Positions 47,178-60,268 of a DNA stretch of 64,000 bases are shown piece after piece (within the stretch, counting starts at the first letter, position 1; the number at the start of each line of letters is the position of its first letter). The translations under genes were made by a program, and so were the position numbers. Source of the stretch: Salinicola socius (lineage in GTDB: Bacteria > Pseudomonadota > Gammaproteobacteria > Pseudomonadales > Halomonadaceae); contig NZ_MSDO01000003.1 in assembly GCF_001937195.1 (NCBI RefSeq), forward strand, positions 124,001 to 188,000, given 5' to 3'. A model generated the notes under the pieces. The model did no database searches. It saw nothing but the letters and a program-made list of their open reading frames with translations, and was not told the DNA's origin.

Positions 47178-47732
47178 TCATTGGCTGGAAGAATAATGAA
47201 TCAGATCGTGAACTCTGACCGATGCCCGTGACAGATTGCGATAGGCGTGAGGCTGATCACCCGGAAAGCGTATCGCATCCCCCGCCGCCAGGGTTTGCCA
47301 CTCCTCGTCGAGTCGGAGTTCCATCACTCCTTCAAGCACGACCAGGTGCTCGACGACACCAGGCGCATGGGGTGCCGACTCGCTGACCGTGCCCTGTGGC
47401 AGCTCGATCACGAACATTTCGAATCCCAGTGTCGGATCGAATGTAAACAGCGGCGTGACGATCATTCCCGAGGCGTCGTGATGCCGTTGAGGAGTCGATG
47501 TCGGGCGCTGTAGTTCGGGGGTTTGCGCCACCAGAAAACCCGTAAGCGGTACCCGCAGACCACTGGCTATTTTCCACAATGTCGAGATGGTCGGCGTGGA
47601 TTCACCGCGCTCGATCTGACCCAACATGGCCTTGCTCACGCCGCTGGCCTGAGCGACTCGATCAAGGCTCCAGCCACATTCGGCGCGGCGCTTTTTCAAG
47701 TGTCGGCCGATGGCCAATACATCCGCCTCCAT
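47178..47732 (-). CDS. sutR: XRE-cupin regulator SutR (YdcN) orthologue
   Basis: A 184-residue regulator with N-terminal HTH (WSLDRVAQASGVSKAMLGQIERGES) and a C-terminal cupin (FEMFVIELPQGTVSESAPHAPG, EHLVVLEGVMELRLDEEWQTL). Both halves align closely with E. coli YdcN, now called SutR, a regulator linked to sulfur use. ATG 47732 follows AGGAGG. It is divergent from a benE-family transporter, the same pairing as ydcN-ydcO in E. coli. Two identical-type operators lie between them. Confidence 0.9.
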   Translation of the reverse strand: MEADVLAIGRHLKKRRAECGWSLDRVAQASGVSKAMLGQIERGESTPTISTLWKIASGLRVPLTGFLVAQTPELQRPTSTPQRHHDASGMIVTPLFTFDPTLGFEMFVIELPQGTVSESAPHAPGVVEHLVVLEGVMELRLDEEWQTLAAGDAIRFPGDQPHAYRNLSRASVRVHDLIHYSSSQ

Positions 47733-47808
47733 GCTTCCTCCTGAGTGACGCACTGCTGGAGCCCTCACTTTACCGCAAGTGAATCGTCAGCCTGGAAAAA
47801 CCAGGGTC

Positions 47809-47824
47809 GTGCGTTATAGCGCAC
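47809..47824. promoter_or_regulatory. Operator 1, sutR side
   Basis: GTGCGTTATAGCGCAC, near-perfect 16-bp palindrome. On the minus strand it contains TATAAC, a possible -10 for sutR, so binding would block sutR transcription. It pairs with operator 2, centre to centre 39 bp. Confidence 0.8.
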
Positions 47825-47847
47825 ATTGGCACCGCTTCATCGAAAGT

Positions 47848-47863
47848 GTACGCTATAACGCAC
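47848..47863. promoter_or_regulatory. Operator 2, benE side
   Basis: GTACGCTATAACGCAC, the inverted copy of operator 1 with one difference. On the plus strand its TATAAC can be a -10 for the transporter gene. The common form is GTNCGNTATANCGCAC. SutR is the obvious candidate binder. Confidence 0.8.
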
Positions 47864-47890
47864 ATTACTGATCCCTTCGAGATATCTCCC

Positions 47891-49084
47891 ATGGCTCGTT
47901 TACCGAATGGACGTCGCCTGGTTTCGTCCAGAATCACCCTCTCGCAGGTTACAGCCGGTTTCGTCGCGGTTCTGGTCGGATACACGAGTTCCGCCGTGAT
48001 CATTTTCCAGGCTGCTGCTGCAGCCGGCGCCTCTCCCACTCAGATCGGAGGCTGGCTGAGCGCGCTGGGCCTGGCCATGGGCATCACCTCGATCGGGCTT
48101 TCGCTGCGCTATCGGCAACCCATCCTGACAGCCTGGTCAACCCCGGGCGCAGCATTGCTGGCAGTCAGCCTGCCGGGTCTTCCGCTGAGCCAGGCAATCG
48201 GTATTTTTCTATTCAGCGCCGTCCTGATTCTGATCTGCGGTGTCACCGGCTGGTTCGCCAGGCTGATGCAAATCATTCCGCAATCGATCACTGCTGCCAT
48301 GCTCGCCGGCGTGCTGTTGCGCTTCGGTCTGGACGCATTTTCCTCGCTGGACGGAGACTTCCTGTTGGTACTATCGATGTTTTTAACCTATCTCGCCGCC
48401 AAACGATGGGTGCCACGCTACGCCATCGTGCTGGTACTCCTGGCAGGACTCGGCGTGGCCGGCCTGCTGGGTGAGATCGATATCCAGGCGGCCCAACTGA
48501 TCGTCAGCGCTCCCTCTCCGGTCTGGCCAACCTTCTCGCTCTCGAGCCTGATTGGCGTGGGGATTCCACTGTTCGTGGTGACCATGGCCTCACAGAATGC
48601 TCCCGGCGTAGCCACGCTGCGCGCTGCCGGCTACGACGCACCCATTTCGCCGCTGATGCTATGGACCGGATTGGCGACGTTCCTTCTAGCCCCGTTCGGT
48701 GCCTTCAGTATCGGTCTGGCCGCCATTACCGCAGCGATCTGCATGGGGCCAGAGGTCGATCCCGAGGCGAGCCGGCGCTACCCGGCAGCGATCTGCGCCG
48801 GCGTATTCTATTTACTGGCTGGGCTTTTCGGTGGATCGATCGGCACTGTATTCGATGCCCTGCCGTCGGGCCTGGTGCTGGCGATCGCCGGCCTGGCGCT
48901 GCTTTCTAACATCGGCGGCAGCCTTCATCGCGCCCTGCTGCAAAGCCACCAGCGCGAGCCGGCCCTGATCACCTTTCTGGTAACCGGTTCCGGTGTGACC
49001 TTGTGCGGCATCGGCGCTGCATTCTGGGGGCTAGCGGCCGGGTTGCTAGCGCTGTTCGTACTGACGAAACCGTGCCGTATCTGA
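47891..49084 (+). CDS. ydcO: BenE-family transporter (YdcO-like)
   Basis: A 397-residue polytopic carrier of the benzoate/H+ symporter (BenE) family, with about 11-12 helices: QVTAGFVAVLVGYTSSAVIIFQAA, LRYRQPILTAWSTPGAALLA and VVTMASQNAPGVATLRAAGY are typical. The substrate is unknown; its coupling to SutR suggests it need not be benzoate. ATG 47891 is used, since the frame upstream crosses operator 2. Confidence 0.88.
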   Translation: MARLPNGRRLVSSRITLSQVTAGFVAVLVGYTSSAVIIFQAAAAAGASPTQIGGWLSALGLAMGITSIGLSLRYRQPILTAWSTPGAALLAVSLPGLPLSQAIGIFLFSAVLILICGVTGWFARLMQIIPQSITAAMLAGVLLRFGLDAFSSLDGDFLLVLSMFLTYLAAKRWVPRYAIVLVLLAGLGVAGLLGEIDIQAAQLIVSAPSPVWPTFSLSSLIGVGIPLFVVTMASQNAPGVATLRAAGYDAPISPLMLWTGLATFLLAPFGAFSIGLAAITAAICMGPEVDPEASRRYPAAICAGVFYLLAGLFGGSIGTVFDALPSGLVLAIAGLALLSNIGGSLHRALLQSHQREPALITFLVTGSGVTLCGIGAAFWGLAAGLLALFVLTKPCRI

Positions 49085-49121: not shown

Positions 49122-50024
49122 TCAAATGCCGATCAAGGCGCCCTGCCGCGACCGTCCATCGTCATCGGCGATCGGTTCGACATCCACCGAGACGTCGAGC
49201 TCGTGCGCGCCGCCGCCATTCATGATGCCCTTGAGCGGCGGTACATCACCGTAATCACGCCCCCACCCCAGAATGAGATGCCGCTCACCCGGCAGGTTGC
49301 CGTTGGTCGGATCGTACTCGAGCCAGCCCCAGTTCGGCACATGTACCGCGACCCAGGCATGGGAAGCATCGGCGCCGATCAACCGGGGTTGACCGGGTGG
49401 CGGCAGGGTTTCCAGATAGCCGCTGACATAGCGCGCCGAGAGCCCCAGCGAGCGCAGACATCCGATCATCAGGTGGGCGAAGTCCTGGCAAACGCCGCGC
49501 CGGGCGCGAAGCACGTCCAGCACCGGGGTCGCCAGCGTCGAGAACGCCGGGTCATAGGTGAAGGTCTCGAAAATACGACGATTGAGGTCATCTACCGCGT
49601 TCAGTAACGGCCGGCCGACCGGAAAGCTGGATGCTGCGAATCCGCGTAGCGCCGGGTCTCGGGAGATGAACGGGGAATCCAGCTGAAATTGGCGGAGTTC
49701 CGGTGTTCGGCTGGCATGTCGTACGGCCATCTGCCAGTCGTTATCGACCTCGCTTGGCGGCAGCGGGCGTCCCTGAGTTCGAAGGGTGGTCGAGGCAGTG
49801 ACCGACAACGCCAGATGGACTTCCTGAACGCTGAAAAAGGCCACCCGATTACCGAAGAAATCGAGGCGCTCGCTGGTAACGGCCGGACGCGGCTCGATAT
49901 CGAGTCCGGTCGGTTCGACCTTCTGCCACGATAGCTCCCGGGGCAGGATTCGTGCCTCGTTGTGGCATAGCGAAACCGGCGCCGCGTACTCATAGCGGGT
50001 CGTGTGGCGAACTCGATAGCGCAT
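49122..50024 (-). CDS. Transglutaminase-fold protein (bacterial N-domain type)
   Basis: A 300-residue cytoplasmic protein with the bacterial transglutaminase N-terminal beta domain (MRYRVRHTTRYEYAAPVSLCHNEARI) and a papain-like core. The triad is visible: Cys179 in RRGVCQDFAHLM, His222 in ASHAWVAVHVP, Asp238 in LEYDPTNG. Proteins of this sort may hydrolyse or transfer peptide amide bonds. It sits 146 nt downstream of the ATP-grasp/Alpha-E fusion on the same strand and is read as part of the same module. Substrate unknown. Confidence 0.9.
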   Translation of the reverse strand: MRYRVRHTTRYEYAAPVSLCHNEARILPRELSWQKVEPTGLDIEPRPAVTSERLDFFGNRVAFFSVQEVHLALSVTASTTLRTQGRPLPPSEVDNDWQMAVRHASRTPELRQFQLDSPFISRDPALRGFAASSFPVGRPLLNAVDDLNRRIFETFTYDPAFSTLATPVLDVLRARRGVCQDFAHLMIGCLRSLGLSARYVSGYLETLPPPGQPRLIGADASHAWVAVHVPNWGWLEYDPTNGNLPGERHLILGWGRDYGDVPPLKGIMNGGGAHELDVSVDVEPIADDDGRSRQGALIGI

Positions 50025-50100
50025 GCATCAATCCTGTAACGAAAAGATGACAACCGGGCGATGACAGTCGCTGGCGACGACAGTCGTCAACTCAATCATT

Positions 50101-50145
50101 CGCGAACTCGGTCACTCGCAAAATCAGCCGGTCGCGAACTCGGTC
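50101..50145. repeat. 13-bp direct repeat between the fusion gene and the transglutaminase gene
   Basis: CGCGAACTCGGTC occurs at 50101-50113 and 50133-50145. The spacer around it is also repetitive (GACAGTCG twice near 50063). No structure or known element is recognised. Confidence 0.5.
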
Positions 50146-50170
50146 GGTCGTAAACGCCGCCAGCCGCCCG

Positions 50171-52702
50171 CTATGGTGTCTGCATCGGTATCAGCTGACG
50201 CGGGGCTTCGACGTGACTGAAGTGACTGTGCTCGATGGCCAAGGACAGCGCCTCGAGCGGCACCGTCAATGCATCGAGCAGATCCGCCAGTGCCTGCTTG
50301 GCATCTTCGTCATCCTCCAGCTTCGCCAGCAACTCCAGATCCGCCAGATGCAGGGCCGAGCGAGCCTTGATCAACAGCCGGGCCTCGTCGCTGCGATAAG
50401 GCGTATTGCTGGGCTGGGGTAGGCGCTCGATCTGGCGCTCGAGACGCTTGAACATGTAACCCACCGAGCGCGGGTTGGCCTCGTCGAACAGCAGCAGATC
50501 GAGAATGGCTGCCGGATGCAGCTCGCTGCGATAACGTCGCCGATACGCCGTGGCATTGTCGGTCGTGGTCAATACCACGTCCCACAGCGCCTCGCCGGCA
50601 TGCCTCGAGTCGATCAGCGCCAGACGCAGCAGCGTCAGTGTCGCCAACGCTCGCTCGAGAAAACGCCCGATATCCATGAAGCGCCAGCCGAAGTGATGCG
50701 GCATGGTCTCGTTGCAAAGGCCGAAGAAAGCCGCCAGCTGGGTGATCACGGTCTCGACGGATCGCCGCCCCTGGTCGATACCGGCGTTGGGTAGCCGCAC
50801 CGCTTCCTGACGCAGCTGATTGAAGACCCGCCAGGCATCGTCTCCCAGATGATCACGAACCGCGCGGCAGTTGTTGACCATACGCGAGACCATCATCGGT
50901 AAACTGCCGTCCTGGGTCTCGTGAAACAACCCCATCAGACGGTCCCGATGCATGACAAAACGTTCGACCGGCAACTCGCCGGGCGATGATGTATCGAGCT
51001 CGAGCAGATGCAGAAGGTCCTCCAGCGTGTCATCCGCCTGCCCTTCCTGCCCCTGCTCGAGCAATCGATACAGCGCCTCGCGCAGCAATCGGGACCGTCC
51101 CTCGAGCCGCTCGCCGTAGCGCCCGACCCAGAACAGGCTATCGGCAACGCGACTCGGTAGATCGGCGCCATCCCGCGTGACTACCAGCGGCTGGCGTGAC
51201 CGCCGCAGACGGCTGACATGCGGCTGCGGTTCTTCCGCGGTCACCCACACATCCTTGACACACTGACTGGACCGCATCGCACTACCCGGAGCACCGTGCC
51301 ACGCCACCCCACCGGGCATGACGTCATAACCACTGAATCGATAATCGGTATCGAAGACCGCCTGGGTGAAGCAGCGCACGTTGAACGGTAGTGGCGACAG
51401 CTCGGCACAGTCACGGCTGAAGAACGGCGCGGTCGCCGCCACCAGCGGCTGCTGGGCCACGTAACGATCCGGTTGGGCGACGATCGCCTGGCGCAACCGG
51501 CTGGCCGCCTCTTCGTTCATGTCCGCGGGCGACACCGGACCAGGCTCGCCGTCCAGGCGTTGAAAGCTCAGCGTCTCGAAGCCCGCCATCGCCCAGGCCA
51601 GCCCTTCCGGCTGCCCACACCAGTGACGCTCCATGCCTTCGATCTGCAATGTCTCGCCGAGCAGGCGCTTGCACAGGGCCGGCAGGTGTGCACCGATCAA
51701 CGGATGTTCCAGCGCACCGACGCCCGGCGGATTGGCGACGCCGACTCCACCGGCCCGGATCGCCTCGAGCAGCCCGGGCACACCGATCAAGGAATCCCCT
51801 CGCAACTCCAGGGGATCGCTCCATGCATCGCCAATATGGCGCAGCAAAACGTCCACCGGCTGCAGCCCCCCCAACGTGCGGATCCAGACACGCGAGTCGC
51901 GCACCACCAGATCGCTACCCTCGACGAGGGCAAGATTGAGGTAGTTGGCCAGGTAGGCGTGTTCGAAATGACTGTCATGCCCGGGGCCCGGGGCCAGCAA
52001 CGCGATGGTCGGATGATCGAAATTGAGCCGCGACAGTGACGAGAGCGAATGGTGTTGGGCACTCAGGAACCCCGCCAGCCGCTTCAGCGGTGCACGGCGA
52101 TAGAGATCCGGCAAGGCACGCGCCATGGCGATGCGATTCTCCAACGCGAAGCCAACGCCCGAAGGAGACTGCACTCGATCCGCCAGCACACGCCAGTGTC
52201 CTTGCGCATCGCGCGTCAGATCCACCCCGTGCAGCAGCAGGCCAGGGTCTTCCTCGGCCAGCAGCTGATCGCAAGGCAGCAGAAAAGCGGAATTGGCATA
52301 CAAGGCATCGGCCGGGAGCACACCTTCCGCCAGCATTCGACGCGGACCGTAGATATCCTTGAGCAGCGCTGCCATCAATCGGCTGCGCTGGCGCAGGCCC
52401 TGTTCGAGTTGCTGCCATTCCTGAGGCGCGATCACCAACGGCAGCGGATCCAGCCACCACTGACGGCGGCTGCCGGCTTCGTCGTTCGGCAGGTTGTAGG
52501 TCACGCCGTTCTCGTGCAGCAGGTGCTGCACTTCATCGGCTCGCTGCACCAGCGTATCCCGCCCCAACTGTCCCAATTGATCCAGTAGCGGCAGCCACCG
52601 CGGGCGCACCGAACCATCGTCAGCGATCAAGGCATCGTGAACGCTGCCAGGGGCATAAGTTTCCAACCAGGGAGTGCGAAGCGTCTCGATCGCCACCATC
52701 AT
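50171..52702 (-). CDS. Circularly permuted ATP-grasp / Alpha-E fusion protein
   Basis: An 843-residue fusion. Residues about 15-490 are a circularly permuted type 2 ATP-grasp (COG2308). Residues about 515-830 are an Alpha-E domain (COG2307: SRVADSLFWVGRYGERLEGRSRLL, FMDIGRFLERALATLTLLRL). Compared with the stand-alone copy at 56526, two key motifs differ: the metal-ligand LEDNLRVPSG is LADRVQSPSG here (174-182), and the nucleotide-loop VVKPANESGGYGMLIG is LSFQRLDGEPGPVSP (378-392), losing the lysine and the paired glycines. The fusion may therefore be non-catalytic or use another chemistry. Starts at ATG 52702 or 52699. Confidence 0.88.
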   Translation of the reverse strand: MMVAIETLRTPWLETYAPGSVHDALIADDGSVRPRWLPLLDQLGQLGRDTLVQRADEVQHLLHENGVTYNLPNDEAGSRRQWWLDPLPLVIAPQEWQQLEQGLRQRSRLMAALLKDIYGPRRMLAEGVLPADALYANSAFLLPCDQLLAEEDPGLLLHGVDLTRDAQGHWRVLADRVQSPSGVGFALENRIAMARALPDLYRRAPLKRLAGFLSAQHHSLSSLSRLNFDHPTIALLAPGPGHDSHFEHAYLANYLNLALVEGSDLVVRDSRVWIRTLGGLQPVDVLLRHIGDAWSDPLELRGDSLIGVPGLLEAIRAGGVGVANPPGVGALEHPLIGAHLPALCKRLLGETLQIEGMERHWCGQPEGLAWAMAGFETLSFQRLDGEPGPVSPADMNEEAASRLRQAIVAQPDRYVAQQPLVAATAPFFSRDCAELSPLPFNVRCFTQAVFDTDYRFSGYDVMPGGVAWHGAPGSAMRSSQCVKDVWVTAEEPQPHVSRLRRSRQPLVVTRDGADLPSRVADSLFWVGRYGERLEGRSRLLREALYRLLEQGQEGQADDTLEDLLHLLELDTSSPGELPVERFVMHRDRLMGLFHETQDGSLPMMVSRMVNNCRAVRDHLGDDAWRVFNQLRQEAVRLPNAGIDQGRRSVETVITQLAAFFGLCNETMPHHFGWRFMDIGRFLERALATLTLLRLALIDSRHAGEALWDVVLTTTDNATAYRRRYRSELHPAAILDLLLFDEANPRSVGYMFKRLERQIERLPQPSNTPYRSDEARLLIKARSALHLADLELLAKLEDDEDAKQALADLLDALTVPLEALSLAIEHSHFSHVEAPRQLIPMQTP

Positions 52703-52900
52703 CTATTGTCTGCGTGTGCGCCGGGGAATCCTTCCCAGCGGCCGGTCATCACCGGACTCCTGCCGGTGTCATGAGACTCGACGACATCGTCGACTTCCCG
52801 TTCTCAGCAAAGCGTTCAAAACTGATGCAATGCGGTCTTCATCGTGTCGCTGATGACATCCCATTATCGGCGCCCATCATATAGATGTTTAGCCAGGCCG

Positions 52901-55900
52901 CTAGTCGATTCCGCTTTCCCGCTCCCGCAGATCCAGCGTAAACGGATAATCACGGCTGATATGCGGCTCGGGAACTTCATGTACGCCCTGCCGATGACCG
53001 TGAGGCAGGAACCTGGCCAGACGCCGCGCTTCCGCCTCGTTGGCGTTGACCGGAAAGCTCTCGAAATTGCGCCCGGCCGGATGGGAGACGTGATAGGTAC
53101 AGCCGCCGATCGAACGCCGGTTCCAGGTATCGACGATATCGAACACCAGCGGCGCATGAACCGGAATTCGCGGATGCAGCGCCGACGGTGGCTGCCAGGC
53201 ACGATAGCGCACCCCGGCGACCGCTTCGCCATTACGATCCGTTGCCCTCAGCGGCACCCGCTGCCCGTTGCAGGTCACGACATAGCGATCGCCGCTCATG
53301 CCGCTGACCTTGACTTGCACTCGCTCCACCGACGAGTCCACATAGCGCGACGTACCACCGCCCGCGGCCTCCTCGCCGAGCACGTGCCAGGGCTCGATCG
53401 CCTGACGCAGCTCCAGCTCGAGCCCCTGATACTGAACCCGCCCCAATACCGGGCACCGAAACTCCAGAAATGGTGCGAACCACGTCAACGCAAAGGCCAT
53501 GCCGTCATTGTCGAGATCGACCAGAACCTCCTCGAGATCGCACCAAAGGTAGTGCGGAAGCATCCAGCGATCGTGCAAAGCCGTGCCCCAGCGCACCAGG
53601 CCACCATAACTCGGCCGATCCCAGAAATGCGCGACAAGCGCCCGGATCAACAGCCCCTGCATCAGGCTCATGCGCGGATGCGGCGGCATCTCGAACCCCC
53701 TCAGTTCGAGCAGGCCGAGCCGACCGGTATCGCTGTCGGGCGAATAGAGCTTGTCGATGCAGAATTCCGCACGGTGGGTATTGCCGGTGAGGTCGGTCAA
53801 CAGATGCCGGAAAAGGCGGTCCACCAGCCACGGTTGCGCGGTCTCCTCTCGGGACAGTTGCGCCAGCGCAATTTCGAGTTCGTGCAACGACTCGTGGCGC
53901 GCTTCGTCCACACGGGGCGCCTGGCTGGTCGGGCCGACGAACAGGCCCGAGAACAGATAGGAAAGCACCGGATGGCGTTGCCAGTAGCTGACCAGACTCC
54001 CCAGGAGTGCCGGACGTCGCAGGAACGGCGAGTCGGCCGGCGTGGCGCCACCCAGGGTAACGTGATTGCCGCCGCCAGTGCCGGTGTGACGGCCGTCGAG
54101 CATGAACTTCTCCGCCCCCAGGCGAGTCTGTCGGGCCTGCCCGTAGAGCGTCTCGGTCTGGGCTACCAACGCCGGCCAGCTCTCCGCCGGCATGATATTG
54201 ACCTCGATCACGCCGGGGTCCGGCGTGATCATGAAATGGTTGAGGCGTGGATCGGCAGGCGGCGGATAACCCTCGACGAACACCGGCATCTCGAGCGTCG
54301 CGGCGGTCTGCTCGATCGCCGCGATGAGTTCGAGATAGTGCTCGAGCCGCGTGACCGGTGGCACGAAAACGTAGAGCTGTCCGGCGCGTACTTCCAGGCA
54401 CAGGCTGGTGTTGATGGTGTCAGGCTGGTCGTTGACCACGCTGCCCTTGCCAGGCGACTCGTCGTCCGTCTGGGCGACGGTTGCGGGCAGGCGGCCACCG
54501 CTCAACGCGTTGTAGGGAAGGCTTTCGGCATTCTCGCGACGCGCGTCCGAGGGGCCCGCCTCGACGGCCTTGCGCACCGCCTGGTAGCGTCGCGTCACTC
54601 CGCCATGCGAGTCTTCGAGCGCCGCCGTCGGCGCCCACAGTGAATGCGGCTGGTCGACATCGCGAAATGCCGCCTGCGGCAGCGACGACAGCGGCAACCT
54701 CAAGCCCATGGGCGAATCGCCAGGGATCAGATAGAGATGTTCGCGTCTCAACGGCCATTCGCCGCTCTGCCAGCCATTCAGCCGTGGCGCGTATCGCAGC
54801 GGCAACGCATAGCCGATCACCTTGCCCAGACCTCGCTCCAGCAACTGTGCCAGGCGCCGGCGCTCCTCTTCATCGTCGAGATCGTACTGGCGCGGGTCGA
54901 CATCGACCGCCAGGGTCTGCTCGCGCCACAGATAGTAGAAAGCGTCCTCGTAGCCCGGCAGCAGATGATCCGCGTCGACGCCCAGATGTTCGGCCAATTT
55001 TTCGCCGAAGCGAAGCGCATCCTCGGCGGCATGGCCGGGGGCGGCACTCTCTTCGAAATTCTCGTCGGCCAACCAGCGTTCGTCATGCCATATCGCTTCA
55101 CCGTCCTTGCGCCAGTAACAGGCCAAGGCCCAGCGAGGCAGCGATTCGCCGGGATACCACTTGCCCTGACGATAATGCAGCAGGCCGCCCGGGGCGAAGG
55201 CGCGCCGCAACCGCTTGAGCAGCTCGCCGGACAGCTTGCGCTTGGTCGGGCCCTGGGCGGCAGTGTTCCATTCGTCCGCCTCCATGTCGTCGATCGACAC
55301 GAAGGTCGGCTCGCCACCCATGGTAAGACGGACATCGGCGCCACTCAGGCGGCGATCGACCTGCTCGCCGAGGCGCTCGATGGCTTGCCACTGGTCGTCG
55401 CTATAGGGTCGTGTGACACGCGGATCCTCGTGGATCCGCTCGACGCCCATTGAAAAATCGAACGTCACCTCGCACTCGTCGGAATAACCGACGATCGGCG
55501 AGGCGCTGGTCGGCTCCGGTGTTGCCGCCAGCGGAATGTGTCCTTCGCCTGCCAGCAGACCCGAGGTCGGATCGAGACCAATCCATCCGGCGCCGGGGAT
55601 GAATACCTCGGTCCAGGCATGAAGATCGGTAAAGTCGGTCTCGGTGCCGGAGGGCCCTTCCAGCGCCTTGACGTCGGCCGTCAACTGAATCAGATAGCCG
55701 GAGACGAAACGTGCCGCCAACCCCAGATGGCGAAGAATCTGCACCAGCAGCCAGGCCGAGTCCCGACACGAGCCCCGGGCTTTCTCCAACGTCTCCTCGC
55801 CGCTCTGTACCCCCGGCTCCATGCGCACCAGATAACTGATGTCCTGCTGCAGGCGTTGATTCAGCATCACCAGGAAATCGGCGATGCCGGACGACTCCCT

Positions 55901-56305
55901 GGGGACCTTTGCCAGCCAGGCCATCAAACGCTCGCCGCGTTCGCCGATCTCGAGATAAGGCGCCAGTTCCTTGCGCAGCGCCTCGGGATAGGCAAACGGA
56001 TAGTTCTCGGCGTAGCTCTCGACGAAGAAATCGAACGGGTTGATCACCGTCATCGGGGCGATCACCTCGACCGCCACGTCGAGCCGCGTTACCGGTTCGG
56101 GAAACACCACCCGCGCGATGAAGTTGCCGAAAGGGTCCTGCTGCCAACTGAGAAACTGCGGCTTGGCCGAGACGCTCAGCGAATAAGCTTCGATCGGGGT
56201 CCGGCAGTGCGGCGCCGGCCGCAGCCGAATCAGGTGCGGCGACAGATTGACGGGGCGATCGAAGATGTAGGACGTACGGTGAGACAGCGCAACGCGTAGG
56301 GTCAT
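52901..56305 (-). CDS. Transglutaminase - DUF2126 fusion protein
   Basis: A 1134-residue protein. Residues 1-80 are the transglutaminase N-domain. The core follows, with Cys180 in KARGSCRDSAWLLVQ, His229 in DLHAWTEVFIPG and Asp245 in GLDPTSG. From about residue 300 to the end is DUF2126 (RLTMGGEPTFVSIDDMEADEW, GGGNHVTLGGATPADSPFLRRP, RTLEL-type acidic patches). I recall DUF2126 being assigned to the COOH-NH2 (glutamine-synthetase-like) ligases, which would join ligase and peptidase on one chain. ATG 56305 is used; the frame to 56365 is unlike the family. Divergent from the ATP-grasp gene. Confidence 0.88.
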   Translation of the reverse strand: MTLRVALSHRTSYIFDRPVNLSPHLIRLRPAPHCRTPIEAYSLSVSAKPQFLSWQQDPFGNFIARVVFPEPVTRLDVAVEVIAPMTVINPFDFFVESYAENYPFAYPEALRKELAPYLEIGERGERLMAWLAKVPRESSGIADFLVMLNQRLQQDISYLVRMEPGVQSGEETLEKARGSCRDSAWLLVQILRHLGLAARFVSGYLIQLTADVKALEGPSGTETDFTDLHAWTEVFIPGAGWIGLDPTSGLLAGEGHIPLAATPEPTSASPIVGYSDECEVTFDFSMGVERIHEDPRVTRPYSDDQWQAIERLGEQVDRRLSGADVRLTMGGEPTFVSIDDMEADEWNTAAQGPTKRKLSGELLKRLRRAFAPGGLLHYRQGKWYPGESLPRWALACYWRKDGEAIWHDERWLADENFEESAAPGHAAEDALRFGEKLAEHLGVDADHLLPGYEDAFYYLWREQTLAVDVDPRQYDLDDEEERRRLAQLLERGLGKVIGYALPLRYAPRLNGWQSGEWPLRREHLYLIPGDSPMGLRLPLSSLPQAAFRDVDQPHSLWAPTAALEDSHGGVTRRYQAVRKAVEAGPSDARRENAESLPYNALSGGRLPATVAQTDDESPGKGSVVNDQPDTINTSLCLEVRAGQLYVFVPPVTRLEHYLELIAAIEQTAATLEMPVFVEGYPPPADPRLNHFMITPDPGVIEVNIMPAESWPALVAQTETLYGQARQTRLGAEKFMLDGRHTGTGGGNHVTLGGATPADSPFLRRPALLGSLVSYWQRHPVLSYLFSGLFVGPTSQAPRVDEARHESLHELEIALAQLSREETAQPWLVDRLFRHLLTDLTGNTHRAEFCIDKLYSPDSDTGRLGLLELRGFEMPPHPRMSLMQGLLIRALVAHFWDRPSYGGLVRWGTALHDRWMLPHYLWCDLEEVLVDLDNDGMAFALTWFAPFLEFRCPVLGRVQYQGLELELRQAIEPWHVLGEEAAGGGTSRYVDSSVERVQVKVSGMSGDRYVVTCNGQRVPLRATDRNGEAVAGVRYRAWQPPSALHPRIPVHAPLVFDIVDTWNRRSIGGCTYHVSHPAGRNFESFPVNANEAEARRLARFLPHGHRQGVHEVPEPHISRDYPFTLDLRERESGID

Positions 56306-56525
56306 GGCGATCTCTTGGCCGATTGGCGATCTTGTTCTGGGTTCTGGTGACACGGTACTGAACAAATTCAGGCTATCAGCGTAGCCGTTTAACGTGACAT
56401 CTACACAAGCCTCTCACTATGCTTGATAGCGCCTACAGAATCTTTATATACGGTTTTGCCACGACGGGCGACGCGACAACACCCAACAAATGCGTCTTCA
56501 AACCCGCACACAGGAGTCTTCTCCC
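56306..56525. promoter_or_regulatory. Divergent control region of the ATP-grasp/transglutaminase module
   Basis: 220 nt between two outward-facing genes of the module. Rightward, TTGATA (56423-56428) and TATATA (56445-56450) with 16-nt spacing make a fair sigma-70 promoter for the ATP-grasp gene. AGGAG precedes its ATG. I see no obvious operator. Confidence 0.45.
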
Positions 56526-57980
56526 ATGGGCAATGTGGATTGGAAGCAGTACCCGGGCCAGCGCTTCTACGACGAACTGCTCAATGCCAGCGGCATCCCC
56601 AGAGAGGCGGCCAAGCCGCTTTGCGACATTCTCTCGAGCTTCACGCCACAGGAACTCAACGAACGCAAGATCGCGGCGGAAGTCGCCATCCGGACCATGG
56701 GCATCACCTTCACCGTCTACTCCGAAGGCAGCACGATCGATCGAGCCTGGCCGTTCGATATCGTGCCGCGCATCATCCCGGCCAATGAGTGGCGTGCCGT
56801 CGAAGCCGGTCTCAAGCAGCGCGTCGATGCGCTGAACCTGTTCATCGACGACCTCTACCACGACCAAAAAGTGATCAAGGACGGTGTGTTTCCCGAGGAA
56901 GTGCTGGCGCAGTCGGTGAACTTTCGTCCGCAATGCATGGGCATCGATCCGCCCCACGGTGTATGGGCCCATATCTGCGGCTCCGATCTGGTCCGCGACG
57001 GCAACGGCACGATCTACGTGCTCGAAGACAACCTGCGTGTCCCCTCCGGCGTCTCCTACATGCTCGAGAACCGCAATGTCACCAAGCGAGTGCTGCCGGA
57101 GCTGTTTGCGACCGGTCGTATCCTGCCGCTGGATGACTACCCGGCTCAGCTCTACGACATGCTGGCCAGCATGTCTCCGCGCCCGGGTGACGAGCCGCAG
57201 ATCGTGGTGCTGACGCCCGGCATCTACAACTCCGCCTATTACGAACACGCCTATCTGGCGCAGCAGATGGGCGTGGAACTGGTGCAGGGTTCCGACCTGA
57301 TGGTGGACGACGACGATGTCGTGCACATGCACACCGTCGACGGCCTCAAGCGCGTGGACGTGATTTACCGCCGCGTCGACGACCTGTTTCTGGATCCGGA
57401 AGCGTTCATTCCCGACTCCCTGCTCGGCACGCCGGGACTGATGCGAGCCTGGCGTGCGGGCAAGGTCGCCCTGACCAATGCTCCAGGCGCCGGCGTCGCG
57501 GACGACAAGGTCGTCTACGCCTTCGTACCCAAGCTGATCGAGTACTATCTCGACCAGAAACCGCTGATCCCCAACGTCCCCAGCTATCTGTGCATGTTCG
57601 AAGACGATCGACGCTACGTGCTGGAGCATCTGCACGAGCTCGTGGTCAAGCCCGCCAACGAGTCCGGCGGCTACGGCATGCTGATCGGCCCCCGCGCCAC
57701 CGAGGAGGAGCGCCAGGAATTCGCCAGGCGCATCGAGGCGGACCCTCGCAACTACATGGCGCAACCGACACTCGCACTCTCCACCGCGCCGACGCTGTTC
57801 GATGGCACGCCGGAGCCGCGTCACGTCGATCTGCGCCCATTCATCCTGTCCGGCACCGAGACGCATGTCACCATGGGCGGTTTGACTCGGGTGGCACTGG
57901 TCAAGGATTCGCTGGTGGTCAATTCCTCTCAGGGTGGCGGAAGCAAAGACACCTGGATCGTCGAAACCGAGGGAGAGTGA
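56526..57980 (+). CDS. Circularly permuted ATP-grasp protein (COG2308), stand-alone
   Basis: A 484-residue ATP-grasp. The metal-binding LEDNLRVPSGVSYMLENR places Glu167, Asp168 and Asn169. The nucleotide loop VVKPANESGGYGMLIGP places Lys375. Further conserved parts are HGVWAHICGSDLVRDG and LALSTAPTL. It should activate a carboxylate as acyl-phosphate for amide bond formation, but the acceptor is unknown. ATG 56526 has AGGAG nine nt upstream. The Alpha-E gene starts 4 nt after its stop. Confidence 0.9.
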   Translation: MGNVDWKQYPGQRFYDELLNASGIPREAAKPLCDILSSFTPQELNERKIAAEVAIRTMGITFTVYSEGSTIDRAWPFDIVPRIIPANEWRAVEAGLKQRVDALNLFIDDLYHDQKVIKDGVFPEEVLAQSVNFRPQCMGIDPPHGVWAHICGSDLVRDGNGTIYVLEDNLRVPSGVSYMLENRNVTKRVLPELFATGRILPLDDYPAQLYDMLASMSPRPGDEPQIVVLTPGIYNSAYYEHAYLAQQMGVELVQGSDLMVDDDDVVHMHTVDGLKRVDVIYRRVDDLFLDPEAFIPDSLLGTPGLMRAWRAGKVALTNAPGAGVADDKVVYAFVPKLIEYYLDQKPLIPNVPSYLCMFEDDRRYVLEHLHELVVKPANESGGYGMLIGPRATEEERQEFARRIEADPRNYMAQPTLALSTAPTLFDGTPEPRHVDLRPFILSGTETHVTMGGLTRVALVKDSLVVNSSQGGGSKDTWIVETEGE

Positions 57981-57984
57981 GCGC

Positions 57985-58983
57985 ATGCTGTCACGAGTCG
58001 CCGAGAATCTGTACTGGCTGGCACGCTACGTCGAACGGGCCGAGGACACCGCTCGGCTGATCAGCGTCAACAGCAACCTGCTCCTCGACATGCCGGGGAA
58101 GGCGGCGCTGAGCTGGTCGACCCTGATCGACATAACCGGCAGCGGAGACGTGTTCGACACGCTGTTCGAAGAGCGCAACGAACGCAACGTGGTGGAGTTC
58201 CTGTGCCTGTCACGCGAGCATGACAGTTCGATCCTCTCCTCGCTGGCCAATGCGCGCGAAAACCTGCGCACGACTCGCGACGTTGTCCCGCGAGAGATCT
58301 GGGAAGAGATCAATCACTGCTATCTGGAGATCAGCGAGCTGACCCAGACCGGCATGAAGGCACGCAACCGGGACGAGTTCCTGAAGCGCGTGACACGCGC
58401 CTGCCAGACGTTGACCGGTTTGATCGAAGGCACGTTGAGTCATACCGAAGCGAGAACGTTCCTGACCCTGGGACGCCATCTCGAGCGCGCCGACATGACC
58501 ACCCGGATCATCGACGTGCGGTCCAACAACCTGTTGCCCCGCAACCCGGAAGAGTTGATTCCGTTCGAACACCTGCAGTGGATGAGCGTACTCAAGTCGC
58601 TGACGGCCTATCAGATGTATCGGCGGGCAGTCAGACTTCGCGTGCGCGGTCCCGACGTACTGCGCTTCCTGCTGCAGGATCGTGCCCTGCCCCGGTCCGT
58701 GCTGCGCAGCCTGGAAGAGGTCAGTTGGGAATTGCAGGCGCTACCCAACCATGATCGGCCGCTGGCGGTCGCTGCCCTGGTCCGCGCCGAGGTCGCCGAG
58801 GCCGATGTGCAATCGCTGGCGCGTGCACCGGACCAGCTACACCAATTGATCGATGAGTTTCAGATTGGCTTCAACAATCTCCACGAGGCGATCGCCAGCG
58901 CCTATTTCGCGGTCAGCGAACGGCCGGTGAAGGCGTCGCAGAGCCAGGAACAGACGACTTACGTCGATGATGAGGATGACTGA
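57985..58983 (+). CDS. Alpha-E domain protein (COG2307), stand-alone
   Basis: A 332-residue all-helical protein. The start MLSRVAENLYWLARYVERAEDTARLI and the middle FLTLGRHLERADMTTRIIDV carry the conserved Glu-Arg-x-Glu patterns that name the domain. The C-terminus is acidic (YVDDEDD). No catalytic role is known. It always travels with COG2308 ATP-grasp proteins and is likely their partner. ATG 57985 directly follows the ATP-grasp stop; an earlier start at 57934 would overlap it. Confidence 0.9.
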   Translation: MLSRVAENLYWLARYVERAEDTARLISVNSNLLLDMPGKAALSWSTLIDITGSGDVFDTLFEERNERNVVEFLCLSREHDSSILSSLANARENLRTTRDVVPREIWEEINHCYLEISELTQTGMKARNRDEFLKRVTRACQTLTGLIEGTLSHTEARTFLTLGRHLERADMTTRIIDVRSNNLLPRNPEELIPFEHLQWMSVLKSLTAYQMYRRAVRLRVRGPDVLRFLLQDRALPRSVLRSLEEVSWELQALPNHDRPLAVAALVRAEVAEADVQSLARAPDQLHQLIDEFQIGFNNLHEAIASAYFAVSERPVKASQSQEQTTYVDDEDD

Positions 58984-59009
58984 AAAGCACGGGCGAGAAG
59001 ACAGATGTT

Positions 59010-59046
59010 ATCGGTGGGGAACCGATGACCCGGTGACGCCACCGGG
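59010..59046. terminator. Twin hairpins between convergent Alpha-E and metallopeptidase genes
   Basis: ATCGGT/ACCGAT (59010-59026) and CCCGGTG/CACCGGG with a 4-nt loop (59029-59046). No T-run on either strand. Positioned where a bidirectional terminator is expected. Confidence 0.4.
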
Positions 59047-59081
59047 CCGATCGGGGCAGACGTCGATGTCTCGGGAACGAG

Positions 59082-60179
59082 CTACGGGGCAGGTGTGGGT
59101 GTGGGTGTAGGTGTAGTTGTGGTTGCAGTACTGCGCTGCACGACCCGATGAATGTAATCGAGTTTTTCACGGATGGCTGGCGTGATGACCACCGGCACCA
59201 TGTCCAGCAACCCCATCTCCCGATTCAGTTCGTTCAGCGCCAATCCAACCTGCTGGTAGGCCAGAATCATGGCGTCGATGGTGCCATCGTGCTCGGCCCG
59301 TGCCATGCCCAGTCCGATGGCAGTATCCAGCACCGCGACGATGTCCTGGTAGGCGGCAAAGGTCTCGGCAAAATCCTCCCACGGATGCATGGTCGCATAG
59401 GCGGATACATGGGACTGGGCCCAATCCGCCGCGGCCCCCTGCTCGTAATAGCGTTCCAGCGCCTCGGCGTAAGTCGGCGCTTCGGGATCGCCGAAAATGG
59501 CCCGGCTGGCATCCTCGTCATGCCCTCGTATCAACAGATCCCAATAGTAGTGGCCGATCTCATGGCGAAAATGGCCGATCAGGGTGCGATGCGACTCGTT
59601 CATATCGACGCGCAGCCGCTCGCGCTCTGCATCGTCGGTCTCCTTGAGGTTGATCGTGATCAACCCTTGCGCATGGCCGGTATAGACCTTCTCGTCGCTG
59701 CCGGTGGAGCGCCATAGCCCGGCATCCGGCAGGGCATCGGCCATGAACGCGAAACTCAGCGGCAGCACCGATTCGTCCTGCGGCGAAGGGTGCGGCAGGC
59801 CGATCAGATCCAGCGTGTAGAACAGTCGGCGCTTGGCAGCCTCCAGCGATGCCCAGCGTTCACGGTGGCCCTCGATCGAGAGATCGGGAATCACCGCATT
59901 GTGGCGACAACAGTCACACAAGCCGTCGTAAGCCGCGTGGTCTTCCGGTGTCTGCATGCGATTGCAGACGCTCTCGCTGGCATAGTTGAAGCACTTCACG
60001 AGCGCCGTTCCACAACCCGGGTTGGCGCAGCGATAGCCGACCTCGTTGTCCGGAATCATCGCCGCAATGGTATGACAGGCCGGACACCAGCCGACCTCAG
60101 CGTCGCAGATGATGCATTGCGTGTTGTCGAAGAAGAGCCGACTCGACGGATTACAGTGATGGCATTCGAAAGTACGCAT
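59082..60179 (-). CDS. Zinc-ribbon putative metallopeptidase (Peptidase_Mx type)
   Basis: A 365-residue protein. The N-terminus packs about a dozen cysteines in pairs (CHHC, CIICD, CPACH, CANPGC, CDCC), that is two or more zinc ribbons. A gluzincin motif HEIGH at 206-210 (GHFRHEIGHYYWD) follows, with acidic candidates downstream (WEDFAETFAAY). It matches the putative zinc-binding metallopeptidases that accompany COG2307/2308/transglutaminase clusters. The C-terminus is a Thr-Pro repeat tail (TTTTPTPTPTPAP). ATG 60179 follows GGGAG. Confidence 0.85.
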   Translation of the reverse strand: MRTFECHHCNPSSRLFFDNTQCIICDAEVGWCPACHTIAAMIPDNEVGYRCANPGCGTALVKCFNYASESVCNRMQTPEDHAAYDGLCDCCRHNAVIPDLSIEGHRERWASLEAAKRRLFYTLDLIGLPHPSPQDESVLPLSFAFMADALPDAGLWRSTGSDEKVYTGHAQGLITINLKETDDAERERLRVDMNESHRTLIGHFRHEIGHYYWDLLIRGHDEDASRAIFGDPEAPTYAEALERYYEQGAAADWAQSHVSAYATMHPWEDFAETFAAYQDIVAVLDTAIGLGMARAEHDGTIDAMILAYQQVGLALNELNREMGLLDMVPVVITPAIREKLDYIHRVVQRSTATTTTPTPTPTPAP

Positions 60180-60268
60180 GACCAATCTCCCTATCAGCTG
60201 TGGCGCAATACCGCCGACGGCGGCATTTTCCGGTGCCCAGACAAGCAGATTAGCAAATTACTCGGGAC

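Follow-up and report, generated by a model that had tools for sequence, protein, structure and literature searches.

An Alpha-E, ATP-grasp and transglutaminase-like gene module in Salinicola socius with one predicted ATP-grasp ligase and one probable pseudo-enzyme

Introduction

Iyer et al. (2009) reportedly described a network of amidoligases that combines circularly permuted ATP-grasp proteins, a glutamine-synthetase-like ligase, and Alpha-E domains. Here we describe a locus with the same domain set from Salinicola socius. It occupies positions 49122-60179 of the 64,000-nucleotide stretch of contig NZ_MSDO01000003.1 that we analyzed (the window), and it comprises six genes, which we call TG (transglutaminase-like), AGAE (ATP-grasp fused to Alpha-E), TG-DUF2126, AG (free-standing ATP-grasp), AE (free-standing Alpha-E), and MX (metallopeptidase). 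The locus is a real module of a known kind, the Alpha-E / circularly permuted ATP-grasp / transglutaminase-like system that is related to the Anbu operon, in a layout with the peptidase Mx and without Anbu. We found that the fused ATP-grasp lacks signature residues that the free-standing one keeps, so AG is the one predicted classical ATP-grasp ligase of the module and the fused copy is a probable pseudo-enzyme.

We cite prior work by PMC accession. Iyer et al. 2009, as cited in PMC6376114 and PMC5666114, predicted that the module is involved in peptide synthesis or tagging. Anbu is a relative of the proteasome whose substrates are still being sought (PMC5666114). It was inactive on the substrates that were tried, and the authors deem the proposed roles unconfirmed (PMC6376114). 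A relative of AG releases phosphate from ATP (PMC6376114). Among the matches listed in the open-licence literature for the module's DUF, COG, and domain names, we found no substrate assignment. The original prediction for this locus, which was made from the sequence alone, described the module as having no known substrate, and the accessible Anbu-operon literature agrees.

The Salinicola locus and the Anbu operon share the first two genes, in the same order, as well as a transglutaminase-like protein and a nearby peptidase. They differ in that the Salinicola locus has a zinc metallopeptidase, while no Anbu was found in the genome, and in that it has a second, divergent arm with TG, AGAE, and TG-DUF2126.

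Results

Only the free-standing ATP-grasp has the complete signature

The open reading frames of the window include six intact and contiguous genes at 49122-60179, with nothing unrelated between them, as had been predicted. All six proteins match their Pfam families with scores far above the cut-offs. Across the cluster, we found Bact_transglu_N with Transglut_core twice, CP_ATPgrasp_1/2 twice, Alpha-E twice, DUF2126, Peptidase_Mx, and Zn_ribbon_DZR_6. These are the families that the original prediction had named, including a zinc-ribbon peptidase with a HEIGH motif, but its count of seven domains was too low: there are eight, or nine with the zinc ribbon. An NCBIfam scan gave a name to none of the six proteins (0/6).

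AG (56526-57980, plus strand) is a free-standing circularly permuted ATP-grasp (CP_ATPgrasp_2, 550 bits). Its frame opens at 56490, and the likely start is the ATG at 56526, behind AGGAG. AGAE (50171-52702, minus strand; 843 amino acids) has an ATP-grasp domain (CP_ATPgrasp_2, 381 bits) that is fused to Alpha-E (224 bits). The E-x-N pair of ATP-grasps binds metal. AG is homologous over nearly its full length to PDB 3n6x (E = 2.7e-159), which shares the segments VLEDNLR, GGYG, and NSSQGGG with it; 3n6x is described as a putative glutathionylspermidine synthase, and this function is an annotation only. In contrast, when the fused ATP-grasp domain of the window is aligned with AG, its counterparts of the VLEDNLR, KPxxxxGGYG, and NSSQGGG segments are either altered or missing. 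Using the numbering of the free-standing copy, E179 and N181 are absent, K387 is replaced by Gln, the glycine loop is altered, and G396 is missing.

This difference holds across the fetched loci. The signature E179+N181+K387+G393+G394 is complete in 75/75 free-standing copies and in 0/79 fused copies. We counted distinct sequences, since two of the named loci (L157 and L166) are on contigs that equal those of genomes G006 and G017 in length, after dropping 7 AG or fused open reading frames of under 420 amino acids and setting aside a fragment of the fused gene in genome G013. (In the locus from that genome, L085, several module genes and ProS are in pieces, which is probably due to sequencing quality and not to decay.) These counts point to a single classical ATP-grasp ligase, AG, and to the fused copy being a probable pseudo-enzyme. 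The original prediction had taken both ATP-grasps to be ligases, which does not suit a fused protein that lacks the signature in every complete copy.

Of the 79 fused copies, 2 keep E179, none keeps N181, and 41 keep K387. Other positions are kept almost throughout (D302 in 79, R449 in 78, and D487 in 78), which argues that the fused copy is constrained and is not decaying. In a tree of 158 ATP-grasp domains, the 77 free-standing copies are all on one side of a single long branch (support 0.99), with the fused copies on the other. The fused copies are about twice as distant from one another as the free-standing copies are (1.85 vs. 0.96). The distances of both copies are correlated over 52 loci (Mantel r = 0.60, 0/999 permutations), and common host ancestry could yield the same result. 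We infer that the fused ATP-grasp may act as a conserved partner of the AG ligase. In one locus (L095), an intact ATP-grasp is itself naturally fused to Alpha-E.

AE (57985-58983, plus strand; Alpha-E, 287 bits) follows AG on the same strand. The frame opens at 57934, and the ATG at 57985 is the likely start; this methionine is kept in 25/26 AE rows of the alignment. With this start, 4 bases lie between the AG stop and AE.

Transglutaminase-like domains and DUF2126

TG (49122-50024, minus strand) is a transglutaminase-like protein of 300 amino acids (Bact_transglu_N and Transglut_core). Its candidate catalytic triad is Cys179, His222, and Asp238: C179 and D238 are found in 28/28 aligned rows and H222 in 27/28. 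TG-DUF2126 (52901-56305, minus strand) fuses a transglutaminase-like domain to a putative amidoligase. The frame opens at 56365, and the ATG at 56305 is the likely start. In the transglutaminase-like domain, C200, H249, and D265 (numbered from the beginning of the open reading frame) are invariant in 15/15 aligned proteins.

DUF2126 covers residues 296-1147 of the open reading frame (1315 bits) and is named as a putative amidoligase by Pfam. A glutamine-synthetase-like identity for this second putative ligase is plausible. When we compared an AlphaFold2 model of DUF2126 to the PDB with Foldseek, a chain of the glutamine-synthetase type was at rank 14 (E = 0.33), with many unrelated folds ranked above it.

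The Mx peptidase tracks the Alpha-E system

MX (59082-60179, minus strand) has a zinc ribbon (Zn_ribbon_DZR_6) and a Peptidase_Mx domain (280 bits). Its frame opens at 60185, and the ATG at 60179 is the likely start. Residues 208-212 form the HEIGH motif, and H208, E209, H212, E270, D271, and E274 are invariant in 24/24 aligned Mx proteins. MX belongs to the Peptidase_Mx family (PF15887) by sequence. The best PDB match for its AlphaFold2 model (mean pLDDT 84) is 4l7a, a putative zinc-binding metallo-peptidase. This match is weak (E = 0.013), so the wider fold family of Mx is weakly supported, and a fold search against viral structures found nothing at E = 0.001. The C-terminus (59082-59130) is a Thr-Pro repeat tail that is modeled with low confidence. 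Both of the cluster-linked Mx proteins that we scanned (from the window and from L120) have the zinc ribbon at the N-terminus, and an unlinked one (L111) has no zinc-ribbon match. MX is convergent with AG-AE, so it is not part of AE's operon.

We searched an even sample of 398 genomes from the window's phylum and found Alpha-E in 212, Anbu in 144, and Mx in 72. Alpha-E is present in 70/72 genomes with Mx vs. 142/326 genomes without it (Fisher p about 1e-19, uncorrected for relatedness). Among the Alpha-E genomes, 51 have both Mx and Anbu, 19 have Mx only, 90 have Anbu only, and 52 have neither, so there is no negative association between the two (Fisher p = 0.22).

For the gene neighborhoods, we took 40 regions around Mx, with flanks of about 9.5 kb, in 38 of the 72 genomes that have it. 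Most genera contribute a single region, and most regions are from outside the window's family; a few end early at contig ends. AG, AE, or the fused gene is nearby in 13 of these regions, DUF2126 alone in 2 more, and the other 25 have no module gene within the flanks. Several other genera also have Mx next to the module. From the clusters in the window's family, it had seemed that Mx strictly replaces Anbu; as a general rule, this is ruled out by three regions that have both (3/40, all among the 13 that are linked to the module). Thus, Mx tracks the Alpha-E system, but it is neither always linked to it nor a strict substitute for Anbu.

In the S. socius genome itself, a profile of Anbu from four relatives gave no match. 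The single proteasome-family match is HslV-sized (a 183-aa open frame) and is on another contig. Elsewhere, small Anbu-like proteins are found in loci L114 (3780-4505), L115 (5454-6194), and L116 (6267-7007); they are away from the module and close to a gene that weakly matches the transglutaminase-like family.

Distribution and arrangement of the module

In the S. socius genome, Alpha-E and ATP-grasp have two matches each, and DUF2126 and Mx have one each; every one of these matches is within the locus. Across 58 relatives (including this genome), the genes form nested sets: AG and AE are in the same 26 genomes, the fused copy is in 23 of these 26, and DUF2126 is in 16 of those 23. All of the DUF2126-positive genomes (16/58) have the fused copy.

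Homologs of the TG-DUF2126 protein in Salinicola halimionae and S. acroporae are 87% and 85% identical, respectively. Of 18 genomes from the genus, 13 encode Alpha-E, and all 13 carry Mx within the cluster; the remaining 5 lack both Mx and Alpha-E. At the same place, between the genes for the BenE-family transporter and the small protein that flank the module, four genomes lack the TG-DUF2126 gene, and one member of the genus (locus L086) has AG, AE, and Mx only. More broadly, within the window's family, Mx is in the cluster in 18/20 genomes with Alpha-E. The exceptions are G023 and G025, and G025 has an Anbu-type gene in the cluster instead of Mx. The same gene set recurs at this position elsewhere in the genus, and it does so in other genera too, so the arrangement is beyond chance.

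Nitrogen-type promoters are common in relatives of the module

For comparisons across more distant relatives, we used the best 80 of 589 DUF2126 relatives (the named loci), so this sample leans towards the query. We considered at least 10 matches to the 12 specified positions to be a sigma-54-type site, and we computed the expected numbers from dinucleotide shuffles. Sites of this type precede AG in 24/45 of the named loci (0.5 expected) and TG-DUF2126 in 17/80 (1.3 expected). They are rare before the fused gene (2/52), TG (1/47), AE (0/46), and Anbu (0/16). Without de-duplication, we found sigma-54-type sites upstream of 29/81 AG genes, as compared to 26/542 neighboring genes; upstream of Mx there was no enrichment (5/74). 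Sites that resemble those of NtrC (at least 10 of the specified positions) were also in excess before AG (12/81 vs. 25/542 control genes, Fisher p = 0.001), which is suggestive only.

The sites before AG in relatives fit the published induction by nitrogen limitation. In Pseudomonas putida, PP_2685 and PP_2688 from a related four-gene operon are nitrogen-responsive (PMC8050072), and PP2685-2687 are listed among nitrogen-responsive genes (PMC3325844). In Burkholderia cenocepacia, I35_5080-83 are nitrogen-responsive and depend on both NtrC and sigma-54 (PMC5491218). In a study of metagenomes, the domains of the module are associated with urea metabolism domains (PMC3597751). Together, these observations suggest nitrogen control in many relatives.

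Of the 8 loci that are from the window's family and outside its genus, 3 have a sigma-54 site before AG (L093, L158, and L159). One 10-of-12 match does lie upstream of TG-DUF2126 in the window, but it is inside the AG coding sequence, and we did not count it as a promoter.

The two arms of the Salinicola locus are divergent and are separated by 220 bases, given the likely starts at 56305 and 56526. This region contains the sequence GTGACA-N18-TATGCT (56394-56423, plus strand), which has 9/12 matches to the sigma-70 consensus. The CTCACTATGCT of this candidate is identical in all 10 aligned rows, which represent 8 genomes, and the sequence with this conserved element fits a sigma-70 promoter. 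The region has 4 sigma-70-like sites, as compared to 2.8 in shuffled sequences, so the match is weak by itself.

No conserved precursor or exporter

According to the original prediction, neither a precursor peptide nor an exporter was visible, and a comparative search of gene neighborhoods for small co-occurring genes was proposed. We ran this search on open reading frames of 20-150 amino acids in the gaps between module genes, and found no conserved precursor. The largest recurring groups, from 8 and 5 loci, are all from the window's genus. Outside the genus, every group of 3 or 4 loci comes from gaps with a larger gene in them, and the remainder are pairs. The search covered the gaps and not the flanks; no candidate for a tag gene was found between the module genes, and a tag that is encoded elsewhere or is a single amino acid would escape it. 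As for exporters, we considered neighboring open reading frames of at least 80 amino acids within 6 kb of the 80 named loci. Among the 25 commonest neighbor families, and leaving aside the BenE-family protein of Salinicola, the one transporter-like family is in only 3/80 loci; it is an ABC-type ATPase, by reading the sequence. On both points, the prediction held up within the neighborhoods that we covered.

Surroundings of the module

A BenE-family transporter (identified by Pfam) adjoins the module on one side. A regulator with helix-turn-helix and cupin domains is divergent from this transporter (47178-49084), and the position of the pair at the border of the module is kept in related loci of the genus. 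On the other side, there is a small protein without a Pfam match, followed by a Yip1-like membrane protein and prolyl-tRNA synthetase (these two were identified by reading the sequence). Farther away in the window, at 17866-39064, both strands carry flagellar genes (FliF, FliI, FliK, FlgJ, FlgI, and FlgE), which are unrelated to the module.

The commonest family of larger neighbors is a protein of about 410 amino acids, which is beside the module in 10/80 named loci (L165, L171, L174, L179, L181, L196, L204, L209, L214, and L225). Six of these are from methylotroph lineages, judging by their names, and the single member that we scanned (from L209) has no Pfam match. Also, in loci of the Methylococcales type (L170, L177, L181, and L184), a citrate-synthase-like gene (by reading) directly follows TG-DUF2126.

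Discussion

We propose that the Salinicola locus is a copy of a widespread amide-bond module that carries out an intracellular cycle of ligation and release, with a live ligase and a dead partner. This is a tentative reading: we consider it quite possible, and stop just short of calling it probable. AG, together with AE, would be an ATP-dependent carboxylate-amine ligase, and DUF2126 would be another ligase, which probably acts independently. Hydrolysis or exchange of amide bonds would fall to the transglutaminase-like domains and to Mx. The fused ATP-grasp/Alpha-E protein would be a catalytically dead relative of AG-AE with the role of a partner, perhaps as a scaffold, a holder of the substrate, or a regulator. 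Within the cell, a small peptide or metabolite might be conjugated with a group of the amine or glutamyl type, which would later be released. In many relatives the cycle would be tied to the nitrogen economy, with the Salinicola copy being driven by a sigma-70-like promoter instead. That the module makes and cuts amide bonds had already been proposed in the original prediction. This part fits the protein families, the published prediction, and the release of phosphate from ATP by a relative of AG; its assumption of a second ATP-grasp ligase is not supported, and our results neither favor nor contradict its suggestion of a peptide tag. The loss of the signature in the fused copy, the survey of sigma-54 sites, and the links to the Anbu operon and to nitrogen go beyond that prediction.

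A more specific form of this proposal is unlikely to be right in all of its parts. It has an active ATP-grasp/Alpha-E ligase in an obligate pair with a dead twin, which would hold the substrate or switch the ligase, in an amide cycle for nitrogen starvation; Mx and Anbu would be alternative or parallel peptidases for release, and Salinicola would have been freed from nitrogen control, under its sigma-70-like promoter.

Several observations weigh against the proposed cycle. No sigma-54 site (at least 10 of 12) was found upstream of AG, either in the window or elsewhere in its genus, so nitrogen control of the Salinicola copy is not supported. For the Anbu operon, expression was reported to be unchanged under various conditions, with nitrogen limitation as the exception (PMC5666114). 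When Anbu was used as the bait in a pull-down from the Yersinia bercovieri operon, no specific complex was obtained (PMC6376114). The AlphaFold2 model of DUF2126 is poor (pLDDT 58) and derives from a shallow alignment, and its best match in the PDB is a weak one to 1tt4, a predicted glutathione synthase (E = 0.024). Comparing the DUF2126 profile to GS and GCS2 with hhalign gave no match, and the positive control, GS versus GCS2, was null too. The Mx regions without a module gene (25/40) and the few with both Mx and Anbu (3/40) count against a fixed place for Mx in the cycle. Also, our counts of co-occurrence are uncorrected for relatedness, and related genomes are not independent events.

If the fused ATP-grasp were instead alive, with a different arrangement for binding the nucleotide, then the module would have two active ATP-grasps. 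In favor of this, almost every fused copy keeps D302, R449, and D487, and 41/79 keep K387. Yet E179 (2/79) and N181 (0/79) are nearly or entirely gone, and the window's copy has Gln for K387, an altered glycine loop, and no G396, so we think that an active fused copy is very unlikely. Mx might be an unrelated neighbor that travels with the module by chance: it is convergent to AE and outside its operon, and most of the Mx regions from elsewhere (25/40) have no module gene within about 9.5 kb. We doubt this, because all of the Alpha-E genomes of the genus keep Mx in the cluster (13/13) and the 5 genomes without Alpha-E lack it, because 70/72 genomes with Mx have Alpha-E, and because Mx adjoins the module in several other genera.

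Other explanations concern the substrate. The ligases could attach a short peptide or an amino acid to proteins as a tag, to be removed by the transglutaminase-like domains and Mx (elsewhere, Anbu), as in ubiquitin- or Pup-like systems. Tagging was proposed by Iyer et al. 2009 (as cited in PMC6376114 and PMC5666114), and having several putative ligases and hydrolases within one locus is in its favor. But we found no candidate for a tag gene in the gaps of the module (outside the genus, groups of small open reading frames from at least 3 loci sit in gaps with a larger gene), the only proteasome-family match of the genome is on another contig, and the accessible portions of the Anbu studies (PMC6376114, PMC5666114) name no substrate. 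On balance, protein tagging seems improbable. We would be similarly surprised if AG joined a gamma-glutamyl peptide to a polyamine, like glutathionylspermidine synthase, with the hydrolases releasing the product. The only solved relative of AG, 3n6x, is annotated as a putative glutathionylspermidine synthase, but this name is an annotation. Structures of true glutathionylspermidine synthases exist, and the AG profile matches no PDB chain besides 3n6x, even at E = 10. The association with urea metabolism domains in metagenomes (PMC3597751) is in favor of such conjugates.

To return to the proposed cycle with one live ligase, the Alpha-E/ATP-grasp system is widespread (Alpha-E is in 212/398 genomes) and is often beside Anbu. 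The signature loss in the fused ATP-grasp and the survey of sigma-54 sites make its role more testable. A module with one possible classical ATP-grasp ligase, and with nitrogen-type promoters in many relatives, indicates which enzyme to assay, which protein could be the control, and which growth condition to use. The minimal AG-AE-Mx locus, L086, would be a three-gene entry point.

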